IMG/VR virus record: IMGVR_UViG_3300036799_000076
Span: 1-32,214 of that record
Source: a virus
DNA: 32,214 nucleotides
Reading direction: 5' to 3' (one strand)
Both the position numbers and the translations under genes were made by a program. The notes beneath the pieces are model-generated. The model made no database searches. It had not been told where the DNA came from and saw only the letters and a program-made list of their open reading frames with translations. Below are positions 6,636 through 15,469 of the stretch, piece after piece (within the stretch, counting starts at the first letter, position 1; each line of letters opens with the position of its first letter).

Positions 6636-6905
6636 ATGCTGCTGAAAGCTCTGAAGCCCTGGTTCAACATGGATCACGAAGGCTCGGTCTCGGTAGACCA
6701 GCAATTCGAGGCGTCGGAGTACCGGGCCAGCGAACTGATCCGCAACGGCCTGGCCATTCCGATCGTGAGCGAGACGGAGAAGATCAAGGTGCCGTCCGAT
6801 CCGCCGCGGCCGGAGCCACCGAAGCGGCGCGAGCCCGAGGCAGAAGAGCCGTACGCGTCTTCTCGCCGGACTTCGCGGCAGTCCGACCACAAACACGACC
6901 GCTAA
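6636..6905 (+). CDS. Small head-region protein of unknown function
   Basis: This 89-residue protein follows the capsid gene. Its N-terminal half (residues 1-48) has the pattern seen in small phage head-region proteins that describe a moving boundary of Glu/Ala-rich strands: FEASEYRASELIRNGLAIPI. The second half is Pro/Arg/Glu/Ser-rich, highly charged and probably disordered. The start ATG 6636 has GAGGAG at 6622-6627. Position between capsid and connector suggests a structural or assembly role. No specific family is recognised with certainty. Confidence 0.7.
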   Translation: MLLKALKPWFNMDHEGSVSVDQQFEASEYRASELIRNGLAIPIVSETEKIKVPSDPPRPEPPKRREPEAEEPYASSRRTSRQSDHKHDR

Positions 6906-6919
6906 CGAAGGAGAAGAAT

Positions 6920-7483
6920 ATGGCAGCTCTACCCATCACCCTGATCGGCCAGGCCACGACGGACTCCAGCGGGCAGACCACGTTCATCGGCCTGGCCGTC
7001 GTCACCGGCTTGCAGGTCGGCGGCGGGCCGGCCGAACCGCCGCTCGGCATCTGGGGCGGCCGGCCGCCGCTCTACCCCGACCAAGGCCTGCCAGGGCCAC
7101 AGCCGCGGCCTCCCGGCATCTGGGGCGGCGCGCCGCCATACGTCGACATTGGCGGACCGGGATCGCAGCCTGGTCCCGACCAGGGTCTACCGGGGCCACA
7201 GCCGGGTGGCGGTGCTGGCGCCGGAAACGGCCGTTGGGTTTTCTCGCCGGTCTATGGCTGGGTCTGGGACCCGGGCCAGGGCGGCAAGCCGCAGCCGCCG
7301 AACCCCGGCCAGCCGCCGCGCCCGGGACAAGGGCTCCCGCCCACCTCGCCGCCGCGCCCTGATCAGGGTTTGCCAGGCTCGCAGCCAGGTATCGACCAGG
7401 GCCTGCCGGGCGGACAGCCGGGTATCGACCAGAGCCTGCCGGCGCAGCCGCTCCCTGACCAGACCCATCCCGAGCCGCTCTAA
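6920..7483 (+). CDS. Pro/Gly-rich repeat protein, putative head-associated
   Basis: The 187-residue protein begins with an ordered-looking 30-residue segment (MAALPITLIGQATTDSSGQT). The remainder is built of low-complexity repeats around the core PDQGLPG-QP, seen at least five times, with two GIWGG-PP units. A WVFSPVYGWVWDPGQGG block lies near the middle (about residues 106-122). It should be extended (polyproline-like) rather than globular. Similar PDQGLPG proteins occur in the structural regions of phages of Alphaproteobacteria. Position in the head module suggests a virion surface or assembly protein. GAAGGAGAAG just before ATG 6920 is a good ribosome site. Next comes a hairpin and then the glycosyltransferase cassette. 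Confidence 0.75.
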   Translation: MAALPITLIGQATTDSSGQTTFIGLAVVTGLQVGGGPAEPPLGIWGGRPPLYPDQGLPGPQPRPPGIWGGAPPYVDIGGPGSQPGPDQGLPGPQPGGGAGAGNGRWVFSPVYGWVWDPGQGGKPQPPNPGQPPRPGQGLPPTSPPRPDQGLPGSQPGIDQGLPGGQPGIDQSLPAQPLPDQTHPEPL

Positions 7484-7494
7484 AGGCTGGGGAA

Positions 7495-7542
7495 GGACGC
7501 CGGGCAGGTAGGAGATCCTCCCCTCTTGCGCGCCTGGCGTCC
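7495..7542 (+). terminator. Long branched hairpin between head module and glycosyltransferase cassette
   Basis: GGACGCCGGGC (7495-7505) pairs with GCCTGGCGTCC (7532-7542) over 11 positions, with one G-U pair. The 26-base loop contains its own small hairpin GGAG-ATC-CTCC (7511-7521). It fills most of the 82-base gap between the Pro/Gly-rich gene and the next ATG (7566). There is no following U-run, only GACCGTTT. It may be a partial terminator or an RNA processing structure. Confidence 0.45.
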
Positions 7543-7565
7543 GACCGTTTCACGTGCAACCTCCA

Positions 7566-7781
7566 ATGAGCGCGGACGGCGACCCGAAGGGGCTGTGGTC
7601 GACTGTGAGTCGGCTCGGCCACAGTCTGCTCGGGGCGCTACCTCCGGCGTTCGTCATGCTGGTACTCGTCAACGCCATCTTCCTCGCCACGGTGATGTGG
7701 TTCCTCACGCACCAGATGGACCAGCGGAACGCCTTGGTTGGGAGGCTGCTCGACCGCTGCATGCAAAGCGTCCCAAACTAG
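7566..7781 (+). CDS. Small one-helix membrane protein; possible N-terminal anchor for the glycosyltransferase
   Basis: The 71-residue protein has a single strong transmembrane helix (about residues 26-46, PPAFVMLVLVNAIFLATVMW). A polar, Arg-containing C-terminal tail follows. ATG 7566 is the likely start; GTG 7554 is an alternative. Taken alone it could be a holin-like or unknown membrane protein, a type often seen in alphaproteobacterial phage late regions. Its last sense codons form the slippery heptamer C CCA AAC just before the UAG stop. A -1 slip would fuse it directly to the downstream glycosyltransferase, giving a 378-residue membrane-anchored enzyme. See the finding on this junction. 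Confidence 0.7.
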   Translation: MSADGDPKGLWSTVSRLGHSLLGALPPAFVMLVLVNAIFLATVMWFLTHQMDQRNALVGRLLDRCMQSVPN

Positions 7782-8701
7782 GTCCGCTGCTGATCCATGC
7801 GCCCTGGGGGTTGGGCGACGCCATCTACGTCCGACCGCTGATCCGCGATGCTGCGCTCCAGCGCGAGGTCTACCTCGAGACGCCCTGGCCCGAGCTTTAC
7901 GCGGACCTGAACGTAAAATTCGTCCTCGGCCACAAGGGGCTGCGCCTGCAATGGCGCAACGTGCAGCGGCAGGCTGGCGCTCTCTGGGTGACGCCGCCCG
8001 CCGGGATCGACAAGGTAGCGCTCGGCTACGGGCCTTACGAGTTGGCCGAGAGCGACGTCTTCACCGCGATGGCTCTCAAGATGCCGATGCCGATGGTGAC
8101 GGTGACGGAGCCGGTGTGGGACCTGCCCGACTTGGGCGAGAGCCCGGTGGACCCCGGTGGCGCTCCGCTCGCCTTCGTCCGCCCAGTGATGCGGCGGCTG
8201 GAGTGGGATAACGAGGCGCGCAACCCGCTGCCGCAGTACGTGGCCGAGATCGCGGGCGAATTGAAGGCGGCCGGCTATGCCACTCTGGTGGTGTGCGACA
8301 TCCAAGTGGACCGCGAGATCCTGGCGCAGGGCATCATGCCGCCGCACAACCTGGCGCTGACCAAGGGCGAGTTGAACGTGCGGCAGTTGCTCGCGACGGT
8401 GCGGGACGCCGCGGTGGTGGTGGGGCCGGTCGGTTGGATCGTCCCGGCCTGCGTCGCGCTCAGCAAGCCCTGTTTTGTCGTTCTCGGGGGCAACGGCGGC
8501 ATGAACGCGCCGGACCGGCTGCTCCACCCGCGCATGGCCGCGGATCACATCGGTTTCGCGATGCCGGAGGCTTTCTGTCGATGCATGGATATGCACCACG
8601 ACTGTCGGAAGGAAGTGCCCGACCTGGCCGCGCAATGGCAGCGCTGGATGCGGCGTTGGGCCACGCCGAAGAGCGCGAAGAGGGCTCGCGCCCGCGCCTG
8701 A
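7697..8701 (+). CDS. Glycosyltransferase, GT9 (heptosyltransferase)-like
   Basis: Conserved sequence starts near 7784 with LLIHAPWGLGDAIYVRP, the nucleotide-sugar glycosyltransferase family 9 opening (R.GxxGD-like loop). It ends with a donor-site region GPVGWIVPACVALSKPC...GGNGG, as in ADP-heptose:LPS heptosyltransferases. A Cys/His cluster (CRCMDMHHDC) follows near the C-terminus. The start is a problem. GTG 7697 is the nearest canonical codon that keeps the whole domain, but it lacks a ribosome site and overlaps the membrane gene by 85 bases. TTG 7811 would cut off the first strand. Entry by a -1 frameshift at 7772-7778 fits better (307 residues after the slip). Substrate is unknown: host surface glycan or a virion protein. 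Confidence 0.8.
   Translation: MVPHAPDGPAERLGWEAARPLHAKRPKLGPLLIHAPWGLGDAIYVRPLIRDAALQREVYLETPWPELYADLNVKFVLGHKGLRLQWRNVQRQAGALWVTPPAGIDKVALGYGPYELAESDVFTAMALKMPMPMVTVTEPVWDLPDLGESPVDPGGAPLAFVRPVMRRLEWDNEARNPLPQYVAEIAGELKAAGYATLVVCDIQVDREILAQGIMPPHNLALTKGELNVRQLLATVRDAAVVVGPVGWIVPACVALSKPCFVVLGGNGGMNAPDRLLHPRMAADHIGFAMPEAFCRCMDMHHDCRKEVPDLAAQWQRWMRRWATPKSAKRARARA
7772..7778 (+). promoter_or_regulatory. Candidate -1 ribosomal frameshift heptamer C CCA AAC
   Basis: The heptamer is in phase with the small membrane protein frame (codons CCA 7773-7775 and AAC 7776-7778) and is followed immediately by the stop TAG (7779-7781). A -1 slip would continue as CTA GGT CCG CTG CTG ATC, entering the glycosyltransferase just before its first conserved strand. 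A possible short downstream hairpin, CGCCC (7800-7804) with GGGCG (7813-7817), lies 21 bases after the site. That is farther than usual for a stimulator. C CCA AAC obeys the X XXY YYZ rule but is not among the most efficient sites. Confidence 0.4.
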
Positions 8702-9291
8702 TCTGGAACGACGAATTCGGCTTCGGCTACTTCCCGGTCGATCCGGTCGACGCGCCGTATGATCGCGCCTACTGGGACAAGTACGTGGGCTATGCCGAGA
8801 CGCCGCTCGGCGCGGCGCTGAACCAGACAAGGTGCCAACTCGTCTCCCGCTTCTGGGGCGGACCTGTGGTCGACATCGGCATCGGCTGCGGCACGTTCAT
8901 GAAGACGCGGAAGGCGCGTGGCCTCACCTCGGGGTACGACGTCAATCCCGCCGCAGTGGCATGGCTACAGTCGATCGGCCGCTTTTGGGACCCATACACC
9001 CGCGCCTGCGAGGCGGTGACGATGTGGGACTCGCTCGAGCACATCCGGTGGTTCCCCGATCTGCTAGCGAACGTGACGGAGTTCGTGTTCGTCGCCCTGC
9101 CGGTGTTCAGGGACGCCGAGGACGCGATGACCTCGAAGCATTTCCGCCCCGACGAGCACTACTGGTACTTCACGCCGGAAGGACTGAAGCGCGTCATGTA
9201 CGATCTCGGCTGGGCCTGCTGCGAGGAGAACCGGAGCGAGACCATGCTCGGCCGTGAATCCATCGCCAGCTTCGCGTTCGAGCACATCTGA
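8635..9291 (+). CDS. Class I SAM-dependent methyltransferase
   Basis: The 218-residue protein has the methyltransferase motif I VVDIGIGCGTF (about residues 78-88), the acidic strand-2 end SGYDVNP, and the motif AVTMWDSLEHI (Asp132). The latter has the Methyltransf_23-like D-LEH signature found in enzymes acting on small molecules, sugars or lipids rather than DNA. There is no DPPY or NPPY DNA-methylase motif. ATG 8635 overlaps the glycosyltransferase by 67 bases; TTG 8656 would also work. The overlap with the sugar-transfer gene suggests both act on the same glycan, for example O-methylation of a transferred sugar. That is inference. Confidence 0.85.
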   Translation: MAALDAALGHAEEREEGSRPRLIWNDEFGFGYFPVDPVDAPYDRAYWDKYVGYAETPLGAALNQTRCQLVSRFWGGPVVDIGIGCGTFMKTRKARGLTSGYDVNPAAVAWLQSIGRFWDPYTRACEAVTMWDSLEHIRWFPDLLANVTEFVFVALPVFRDAEDAMTSKHFRPDEHYWYFTPEGLKRVMYDLGWACCEENRSETMLGRESIASFAFEHI

Positions 9292-11737: not shown

Positions 11738-12193
11738 GTGGATGAAGCCCTCTACCGCACCATCCGCGACGACATCATGCTCGCCTGGAACGCGCGCTGG
11801 GCGCGGACGGACATTCCGGTGTTCTGGCGCAGCGGCGGCCCGCAGCCGCGCGTGGATCCGCTGGGCCAGCCCAACTTCCTGCGCGCCGAGATCGCCTTCG
11901 CCCGGCAGGAACTCTCTGGCTTCGGTGGCGGCCTGCACACCAACTTCCGCATTCAGCGCGGCAACGTGGTGCTGCGGTCCTTCTCCTCACGCGCCATCGA
12001 CACCGAGACCGAGGGTCTCAAGGTGATCGGCGAGGCGACCAAGGTGTTCCGCCTCTACCGGGTGACCGATAGCGTGGGCGGGGACCTGTCCTTCGCCGGC
12101 CCCAACAGCGGTTTCGACTGGGGCCCGACCGAAGATGGCGTCTGGTTCATGCGCGGGTATCGCGTCAGTTTCGAGTACCGGTTCTTCGGCTGA
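11738..12193 (+). CDS. Tail terminator-like protein, copy 1
   Basis: This 151-residue protein starts at GTG 11738 (MDEALYRTIRDDIMLAWNARW). Its C-terminal block, WGPTEDGVWFMRGYRVSFEYRFF, ends with the strand pattern typical of tail terminators (gpU-like). These cap the tail tube and fix its length. The size and location just before the tube gene fit. The next gene is an obvious paralog. The stop overlaps the paralog's start (TGATG). Confidence 0.65.
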   Translation: MDEALYRTIRDDIMLAWNARWARTDIPVFWRSGGPQPRVDPLGQPNFLRAEIAFARQELSGFGGGLHTNFRIQRGNVVLRSFSSRAIDTETEGLKVIGEATKVFRLYRVTDSVGGDLSFAGPNSGFDWGPTEDGVWFMRGYRVSFEYRFFG

Positions 12194-12687
12194 TGCCGAT
12201 CGACGCCGCCAACCTCTATCTCACCATCAGCAACGACATCATGCTGGCCTGGAACGCCGCATGGCAACGCAGCGACGTGCCGGTGCTGTGGCGCGACAAC
12301 GACCCGCTGCCGCATCCCGATCCGACCTTCCCGCGCAACGCTGGCACGGGCGGGCTCAATCACTGGTTCCGCAACGAGATCGACTTCGGGATGGAGGAGG
12401 TGGCCGAGTACGGCGGCGGCCACGAGCGCAACATCCGGGTGCAGTACGGCAGCCTGCTGATGCGGTGCTTCACGACGATGATGCTGGACAACGAGGACGA
12501 GGCGCTGGCGCTGATTTCGGATGCATCGCGGATCTTCCGCGGCTATCGCGGCATCGACGCGAACGGCTGCCAGTTGAGCTTCCTCGAGAGCGGCACCGGG
12601 CTTGAGTGGGCGCCGACCGACGACGGTGTCTGGTTCATGCGCGGCTTGCTCGCCGTGTTCGAGTTTCGGTTTCGGGCTACCTCCTAA
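12193..12687 (+). CDS. Tail terminator-like protein, copy 2 (paralog of the preceding gene)
   Basis: The 164-residue protein aligns by eye along its length with the preceding gene: NDIMLAWNAAW versus DDIMLAWNARW; VPVLWR versus IPVFWR; an Asn-Arg-x-Gln region (NIRVQYG versus NFRIQRG); and PTDDGVWFMRG versus PTEDGVWFMRG near the end. It has about 13 extra residues in the middle. Both could form the terminator ring, or one might cap the tail while the other joins head and neck. Which copy is the terminator cannot be told. The gap to the homing endonuclease is 18 bases. Confidence 0.65.
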   Translation: MPIDAANLYLTISNDIMLAWNAAWQRSDVPVLWRDNDPLPHPDPTFPRNAGTGGLNHWFRNEIDFGMEEVAEYGGGHERNIRVQYGSLLMRCFTTMMLDNEDEALALISDASRIFRGYRGIDANGCQLSFLESGTGLEWAPTDDGVWFMRGLLAVFEFRFRATS

Positions 12688-12705: not shown

Positions 12706-13248
12706 ATGGCTGGTGGCGACCCTGCCGCATGCGCGGCGCGGCGGGTGAAGCCCGTCTTCATCTACACACTCGTCGATCCGCGCAACAGCACCGTCTTCTA
12801 CGTCGGCAAGACTGAGAACGCGCTTAAAGTTCGGCTCAGTGGCCATATCTGCGATGCGCGCGCCGGGCGCTCCTCCCATGGCCCGATCACCCGAGCAATC
12901 CTCGCGGCCGGATTGAAGCCGATGATCTACCAGTTGGAGGTTGTCGGGGACGATTGGGCAGCAGCAGAACGGAGATGGATCGCCTACTATCGCGCGGTTG
13001 GGCGTCTAGCCAATCGTGCCGATGGCGGCCAAGGCGGTAGCGGCGGCGGAAGCGGGAATGCCTGGAGAGGCAACACTCAGAGTAGGGAGCATAGTGCGAG
13101 GAAGCGCCTGGCGATGAAGAAGTATCAAGGTCAGCTAAGCATCGATCAAGCGGTGAGATGGCGCGATCCTGAATACCGGGCGAGGCTGATCGGAAGCATG
13201 ACAGGCAGGATGCTTTCCGATCCGCATCAAGAGCGAAACCTGGACTGA
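12706..13248 (+). CDS. GIY-YIG homing endonuclease, free-standing
   Basis: This is a selfish DNA-cutting gene that spreads by copying itself into uninterrupted alleles. The GIY-YIG domain has IYTL (residues 19-22), YVGKT (32-36), Arg43 and the catalytic-type Glu88 in AERRWI. It then has a Gly-rich linker (NRADGGQGGSGGGSG) and a NUMOD3-like DNA-binding segment (SREHSARKRLAMKKY). A basic tail of about 40 residues follows. Family and domain order are clear. It sits between the tail terminator pair and the tail tube gene, where no structural gene of this type belongs. Its codons look richer in A/T than its neighbours'. It probably inserted into the intergenic gap without breaking a gene. Confidence 0.88.
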   Translation: MAGGDPAACAARRVKPVFIYTLVDPRNSTVFYVGKTENALKVRLSGHICDARAGRSSHGPITRAILAAGLKPMIYQLEVVGDDWAAAERRWIAYYRAVGRLANRADGGQGGSGGGSGNAWRGNTQSREHSARKRLAMKKYQGQLSIDQAVRWRDPEYRARLIGSMTGRMLSDPHQERNLD

Positions 13249-14648: not shown

Positions 14649-15110
14649 ATGGCTCCGAACAACAAGTTTGCAGGCCTCGCGGTGCCTGAGACGCCCGCGA
14701 GAATGACCGTAATCAGTCCGTGGGATCCGGACCCGATCGTGCGCAGCGATACCGGCGAGGAGTGCTGGATCGAGCTCTACCCGTCGCAGAGCGAGGTCGG
14801 TCGACTTGTCGACCGCAAGCTGCTCGATAAGAACCTGCGCCGCCGCGTGCAGCGCATGAGCGCGAAAGACATCGAGGCGAACGTCGTCGAGAAGCTCGCG
14901 GGCCTCACCAAGGCCTGGTGTCTGGCGATGCCGGACGGAACCCCAATTGACGAACCGTGCACGCCCGAGAATGCGCTCGCCATCTACAGCGACGTGCAAT
15001 GGCTGCGTGACCAAGTCAGCACGTTCGTGAACGACTTGGGAAACTGGCGCCCGACGCTCTCGCAGACCTCATCGACTACGCCGAGTGGGACTTCCGACTC
15101 GGCCGCGTAA
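14649..15110 (+). CDS. Tail assembly chaperone, upstream frame (gpG-like)
   Basis: The 153-residue product of normal translation is the gpG-like tail assembly chaperone. It helps load tube protein on the tape measure. It contains SPWDPDPIVRSDTGEECWIEL, DRKLLDKNLRRRVQRMSAKDIEANVVEK and LAGLTKAWCLAMPDGTPIDEPCTPENA, and lies between tube and tape measure genes where these chaperones are always found. The -1 slippery heptamer GGGAAAC (15038-15044) is in phase at codons 131-132. The last 21 residues of the unshifted product (Ser/Thr-rich) look like read-out of a frame not under selection, which fits an internal shift site. Start ATG 14649. Confidence 0.85.
   Translation: MAPNNKFAGLAVPETPARMTVISPWDPDPIVRSDTGEECWIELYPSQSEVGRLVDRKLLDKNLRRRVQRMSAKDIEANVVEKLAGLTKAWCLAMPDGTPIDEPCTPENALAIYSDVQWLRDQVSTFVNDLGNWRPTLSQTSSTTPSGTSDSAA
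15038..15044 (+). promoter_or_regulatory. Programmed -1 frameshift site G GGA AAC
   Basis: The heptamer lies in the zero frame as TTG GGA AAC (15036-15044), exactly X XXY YYZ. The lambda G/T site is GGGAAAG, one base different. After a -1 slip, translation continues CTG GCG CCC GAC in the frame that encodes the T-like domain. A perfect seven-base stem, GCCGAGT (15080-15086) with ACTCGGC (15097-15103), lies 36 bases downstream. That is farther than is usual for a stimulator, so its involvement is doubtful. Confidence 0.85.
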
Positions 15111-15469
15111 CCGCCGATGGCCAAGCCACCGCGCGGGAGGTTCTCGAAAGCGTCGAACGGCAAACCGGCCGACGCCCGCCTGATCTTGACGGTCCCGAGC
15201 CACCCCTGGAACTCGCCTATCTCTGGGAGTGGTTCCAGGACCTGCACGTCGCGCGGAGCTCGAATGGCTGGGGGCCGAACCCGATCACCTACAATGACAT
15301 CGCTGCCTGGGCCGGTCTTACCGGTATCACTCTTCGTGTGCCTGAGGTTCGGACGATCCTGATGCTCGATCGTCTCTGGCTCATCTCGCACCACGAGGGC
15401 AGCAAGGCCCGGCAGGACTGGGCGGAACAGCAGCGACGTCAACAATCGGGGCGCGCGCATGGACGTTGA
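15044..15469 (+). CDS. Tail assembly chaperone, frameshift extension (gpT-like)
   Basis: This frame has no usable start codon: it opens after a stop at 15008-15010 and its first ATG/GTG codons are deep inside the domain. It adds 141 residues to the upstream product, making a 273-residue GT-type fusion when the ribosome slips at 15038-15044. Its sequence is the typical tail chaperone second domain: ADLIDYAEWDFRLGR, PPLELAYLWEWFQDLH, SNGWGPNPITYNDIAAWAGL and VRTILMLDRLW. It ends at TGA 15467-15469, overlapping the tape measure start (15459) by 11 bases. The unbroken frame and strong pattern make this a real coding segment. Confidence 0.87.
   Translation: MAPDALADLIDYAEWDFRLGRVTADGQATAREVLESVERQTGRRPPDLDGPEPPLELAYLWEWFQDLHVARSSNGWGPNPITYNDIAAWAGLTGITLRVPEVRTILMLDRLWLISHHEGSKARQDWAEQQRRQQSGRAHGR

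Follow-up and report, generated by a model that had tools for sequence, protein, structure and literature searches.

The window analyzed here is the whole of a 32,214-base stretch of a virus record (IMGVR_UViG_3300036799_000076), and the enzyme gene, its neighbors, the sites described around the enzyme start, and the tail chaperone slip site lie on the + strand. An open reading frame that runs from ATG 7566 to 7781 encodes a one-helix membrane protein of 71 residues and is followed by an enzyme domain (7781 to 8701), whose 3' end is overlapped by a methyltransferase gene (8635 to 9291). The membrane protein gene ends in GTC CCA AAC TAG (7770 to 7781), which places a heptamer of the -1 slippery type, CCCAAAC (7772 to 7778), in the phase X_XXY_YYZ (C_CCA_AAC) directly before the UAG stop (7779 to 7781). 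The conserved domain of the enzyme begins at or about GGT CCG CTG CTG ATC CAT (7781 on) in the -1 frame relative to the membrane protein gene. The UAG occupies positions -2 to 0 relative to the GGT codon at 7781, and the upstream stop lies within a few bases of the enzyme start region, as in coupled stop/start pairs. An earlier note proposed that ribosomes slip by -1 at this heptamer and thereby fuse the membrane helix to the enzyme. We confirmed from the sequence the geometry of that proposal, including the reading after the slip, CTA GGT CCG CTG CTG ATC CAT, and the computed length of the product of a slip at 7772 to 7778, 378 residues.

The name glycosyltransferase, given to the enzyme in the earlier note, is backed by its predicted fold, that of GT9 heptosyltransferases, and by the annotation of named relatives. 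The AlphaFold2 model (mean pLDDT of 89.6), in which strand 1 comprises residues 3-6 (LLIH), matches TibC, heptosyltransferase II, and WaaC (Foldseek E values down to 3.5e-9), and the enzyme shares the GT-B fold with the E. coli heptosyltransferases WaaC/WaaF and TibC (GT9) at 10-14% identity. It also matches PHROG 6804 strongly, a family that carries no stated function, while no Pfam family match was found. These predictions support a GT-B fold, GT9 heptosyltransferase-like enzyme. The same enzyme family (approximately 38% identity over 95%), with the same methyltransferase neighbor, is found in Pseudomonas phage D3 (orf12-orf13) and its kin (Detrevirus), and in both D3 and the window this pair lies after the head genes, between head and tail genes. 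D3 differs in that orf12, in its annotation a gene of its own, follows an intergenic gap, with no upstream fusion or overlap. In the head-tail region of the window, two adjacent and similar open reading frames (11738 to 12193, DIMLAWNARWARTDIPVFWR, and 12193 to 12687, DIMLAWNAAWQRSDVPVLWR) are an apparent tandem duplication, and another between structural genes (12706 to 13248) contains a stretch that, judged by eye, is GIY-YIG endonuclease-like (FIYTLVDPRNSTVFYVGKT).

Neighboring genes and the missing start codon

Upstream of the membrane protein gene, the window encodes a small conserved protein (KALKPWFNMDHEG...; 6636 to 6905) and a proline-rich protein with PDQGLPG repeats (6920 to 7483), of which a similar, longer version is present in relative L002. 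Between the proline-rich and membrane protein genes lies a GC-rich inverted repeat (GGACGCC...GGCGTCC; 7490 to 7550) with TAGGAG in its loop region, possibly a terminator or regulatory hairpin. Relatives of the small conserved protein directly precede the enzyme in related phages, and among the closer relatives the gene before the enzyme mostly encodes, in place of a membrane protein, a small protein (KALRPWxNxDHEGxV...) whose tail is proline-rich or charged; in the window the small protein is parted from the enzyme by two other genes. Relatives of the membrane protein, 52-58% identical and with similar end positions, occur in five other phages (L332, L333, L334 (= L037), L335, and L336), and in none of these does the available DNA contain the enzyme, next to the membrane protein or elsewhere. 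No in-frame natural fusion of the small upstream protein to the enzyme was found among relatives.

Open from 7484, the enzyme frame contains, upstream of or within the first strand region, only TTG 7526, GTG 7595, GTG 7697, and TTG 7811 as standard start codons, with no ATG and with no ATG, GTG, or TTG at the stop overlap. The earlier note had found no good start for the enzyme, and our data agree. GTG 7697 (7697 to 7699) is nearly without a ribosome site (Shine-Dalgarno energy of -1.1 kcal/mol) and has no counterpart in relatives, and TTG 7811 (7811 to 7813), which has no Shine-Dalgarno sequence, encodes residue 11 inside the GLGD loop and cannot be the start since strand 1 lies before it. 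TTG 7526 is disfavored as well, despite a fair site (-7.3 kcal/mol). The enzyme is without a usable ATG, GTG, or TTG start.

By scanning viral contigs we obtained 136 non-redundant loci of the enzyme, the window included, and loci without ATG, GTG, or TTG from -66 to +12 were classed as startless. Nine loci are startless: the window, L013, L019, L020, L022, L021, L025, L057, and L122. In the enzyme tree, L021, L025, and L057 form one clade, L013, L019, L020, and L022 fall together beside the TTGA group to which L122 belongs, and the window groups with L002, L042, L003, and L005. A common start in the family is an NTG overlapping an upstream TGA (TTGA, GTGA, or ATGA), and other loci start at an ATG or GTG somewhat upstream. 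In L002 and L042, the closest relatives of the window, the start of the enzyme is a GTG that touches or adjoins the stop of the preceding gene, and these preceding genes differ from that of the window. Unlike the many relatives with NTGA coupling, the window and two clades have no NTG at the overlap (NTAG or none); the NTAG geometry of the window stop is also found in L019, L020, and L022. L122 reads CTGA exactly at the TTGA position of its sisters L123-L131 and has no ATG, GTG, or TTG from -207 to +12; judged from its sequence, it would be a clear natural example of CUG initiation within the family.

Since the missing start recurs in other loci and the enzymes are intact with dN well below dS, indicating purifying selection, our data indicate that it is real and not an error in one contig. 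Another member lacks its start in the same way in three assemblies (L022, L023, and L024). Given that several relatives are also startless, ribosome entry into the enzyme must be unusual. We found that a proline at +3 is kept in all nine startless loci compared to none of the 19 loci in which the sole start comes after it, which suggests that the codons ahead of +6 are translated. Translation without a standard start is recurrent in this enzyme family, whichever mechanism holds. A nucleotide search of phage records gave no match, and a single prophage relative was found in GTDB genomes, in Mesorhizobium, the only such genome among 397 sampled from its order.

The startless loci are not uniform in their arrangement. 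In L021, L025, and L057, the small gene overlaps the enzyme by 58 bases and has no stop close to the enzyme start, no ATG, GTG, or TTG is present within 130 bases upstream, and the overlap contains no heptamer. In L013 (4500 to 4560), the startless enzyme is in frame with the upstream gene and lies behind its UAG, 18 bases away, an arrangement that would require either readthrough or initiation at a non-AUG codon.

Slippery heptamers and frameshift signals

The genes of the window contain three in-phase XXXYYYZ heptamers (Y = A/T) in 8,924 codons, at 7366, 7772, and 15038, compared to 6.1 expected from codon usage. Since there are only three, CCCAAAC is unusual for this genome, and the chance of such a heptamer is approximately 0.001-0.002 within the final three codons of a gene and 0.02-0.05 within a gene of 71 codons. 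The heptamer GGGAAAC (G_GGA_AAC; 15038 to 15044) is the -1 slip site of the tail chaperone (PHROG 313), as the earlier note described; the -1 product runs to 15469 and overlaps the start of the next open reading frame at 15459. The membrane protein and enzyme genes resemble the lambda-type tail assembly chaperone G/GT of dsDNA phages in that an in-phase X_XXY_YYZ heptamer lies near the end of the first gene and the second frame is -1. The G/GT fusion is widely conserved and was shown by experiment in lambda (PMC5009743), whereas in the window locus neither the neighbor nor the heptamer is conserved.

Among the relatives, the enzyme is in the -1 phase to its upstream gene in eight of the nine startless loci, the exception being L013, and also in L066. 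In-phase heptamers are present in L020 (C_CCT_TTA and C_CCA_AAA), L019 (C_CCT_TTA), and L066 (C_CCT_TTA and A_AAA_AAG) and absent from the overlap in startless L013, L022, L021, L025, and L057. The window has a slippery heptamer within a 0/-1 overlap; neither the slip site nor the fusion was found to be conserved in relatives. In L066 (3950 to 4010; IMGVR_UViG_3300037222_000092), the upstream gene has the tail GTC AAA AAA AAG, with the dnaX-type motif A_AAA_AAG, and the enzyme follows in the -1 frame; there is no ATG, and a TTG within strand 1, overlapping the stop at +9, is the sole standard start. On these sequence features, L066 would be the best frameshift candidate of the family. With L066 counted, in-phase heptamers occur in four of 10 startless or TTG-only loci compared to one of 20 loci with starts (Fisher p = 0.03); p becomes 0.14 if L066 is taken to have a start and 0.30 if L019 and L020 are also collapsed. 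The enrichment of heptamers in startless members is marginal once relatedness is considered.

No downstream stimulatory structure was found at the window heptamer (folding z of 0.43), nor a Shine-Dalgarno sequence 10-14 nt upstream of it; a GGGAGG sits 26 nt upstream. L020 (2488 to 2594) contains C_CCA_AAA followed 12 nt on by an unusually stable hairpin (z of -2.18), the sole unusual fold of five other stretches tested and weak given that number. Sharma et al. selected motifs that frameshift above 0.10% in E. coli in the absence of a stimulator; CCCAAAC is missing from that set, and by their rule a last base of A or G is favored after A_AA (PMC4066793). The motifs of L066 (A_AAA_AAG) and L020 (C_CCA_AAA) are frameshift-prone in E. 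coli (PMC4066793). Among open papers, we found none relevant to CCCAAAC or to a frameshift-fused phage glycosyltransferase.

Routes of ribosome entry into the enzyme

Within the membrane protein gene, its GGG AGG codons form a strong Shine-Dalgarno-like site, GGGAGG (7740 to 7745), with a predicted energy of -9.8 kcal/mol with the anti-Shine-Dalgarno sequence, which surpasses the predicted ribosome sites of all 16 gene starts of the window that were tested. A CTG in the enzyme frame (7757 to 7759) lies 11 nt after it, and among the 662 CTGs of the window three follow an equally good site. This CTG is a candidate non-AUG start that would give MHAKRPKLGPLLIHAPWGLGD and would retain the conserved proline. 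The earlier note overlooked the pairing of an in-frame CUG with a strong predicted ribosome site, which would explain the locus equally well on local evidence and appears at least as likely as the frameshift. A CTG CTG pair (7787 to 7792), with a weak AGGT upstream, provides candidate post-termination starts. A non-AUG start at +6/+9 is not a general answer for the family since L020 and L021 have no CTG there and the proline at +3 is conserved; no enrichment of CTG at +6 was seen by eye among startless members.

We hypothesize that the enzyme is a separate product whose translation, coupled to that of the membrane protein gene, begins at a non-AUG codon close to where that gene ends, and we give this reading a probability of roughly one half (approximately 0.48). 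Ribosomes translating the membrane protein gene would open the mRNA, including the paired GGGAGG, and would reach or re-bind the site, with CUG 7757 as the best candidate and CUG 7787/7790, just past the UAG, as the second choice. The NTG-TGA overlap common in the family would have been lost in the window and two other clades, and with no NTG left a weaker entry would be used. We infer a CUG start in the window from several observations: of the starts tested, CTG 7757 with its GGGAGG has the strongest predicted ribosome site, stop-start overlaps are common in the family and take the form CTGA in L122, the nearest relatives initiate right at the upstream stop or beside it, and retention of the proline favors entry upstream of it, such as at CTG 7757. 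Since the overlap is free of heptamers in five of the startless loci, some route besides a heptamer slip must exist, and the family probably has a non-standard way of initiating translation. According to a passage of PMC12350097 that cites Hecht et al. 2017, the seven strongest initiators of E. coli comprise CUG, AUA, AUU, AUC, AUG, GUG, and UUG, although the wild-type initiator tRNA starts inefficiently at CUG (PMC11497404). Coupled initiation is also weakened by the spacing of 11 nt, which is long, by the predicted pairing of GGGAGG in isolated RNA, and by the relatives, among which the GGGAGG/CTG site is not seen and no other startless member carries a ribosome site of similar quality. Furthermore, the in-phase heptamer would then be a coincidence (approximately 0.001-0.05).

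In a rival explanation, which we regard as possible but less probable than coupled initiation, ribosomes shift by -1 on C_CCA_AAC. Most ribosomes would stop at the UAG and release the free membrane protein, and a few would slip to make the membrane-anchored enzyme, with a predicted junction of ...SVPNLGPLLIHAPWG.... The exact geometry, a heptamer that is very rare in this phage and placed right before the stop, and a tail chaperone site that likewise ends in AAC all argue for a slip, as do the -1 phase of every startless member except L013, the heptamer counts (p = 0.03 at best), the frameshift-prone motifs of L066 and L020, and the retained proline, which a slip would also preserve. The pairing of enzyme and membrane protein is, however, unique to the window contig, no relative fuses its small protein in frame, the overlap is without a heptamer in L013, L022, and the L021/L025/L057 clade, and L013 is in frame behind a UAG. 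CCCAAAC is off the list of efficient motifs and stands without a downstream structure or a suitably spaced Shine-Dalgarno sequence. The fusion proposed in the earlier note is thus supported in its missing start, -1 phase, and rare heptamer and not in the conservation of the arrangement; some relatives do have a normal start and no heptamer, which the note had named as counting against it, but in this form they do not exclude a frameshift here. A frameshift fusion of the membrane helix to the enzyme is not established. We consider unlikely the wider proposal that C_CCA_AAC yields both a free one-helix protein and a membrane-anchored GT-B enzyme and that relatives repeatedly turn the stop-start overlap into a frameshift fusion with whichever gene precedes.

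It is improbable that the missing start reflects faulty sequencing or assembly, or recent damage to the gene in one phage: the window is a single metagenomic contig and no second copy of its junction was found, but three assemblies and two clades share a missing start, and dN is well below dS. Least probable is a far-upstream start at GTG 7697, GTG 7595, or TTG 7526, for which the open frame and the fair site of TTG 7526 speak, but which would add an arginine-rich extension read out of the conserved frame of the membrane protein gene, with no counterpart in relatives and no such codon at all in L013, L019, L020, and L022.

Gene callers will miss or truncate enzymes of this kind. If the frameshift is true, it would represent a route of membrane anchoring for a phage enzyme that was not found in the literature searched. 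The family contains natural genes, in two clades and one singleton, that have stayed intact over long divergence without a standard bacterial start, beside relatives that have one. Together, these genes and their start-bearing relatives offer a direct test of whether coupled initiation at CUG or another non-AUG codon, or frameshifting, replaces a lost start.
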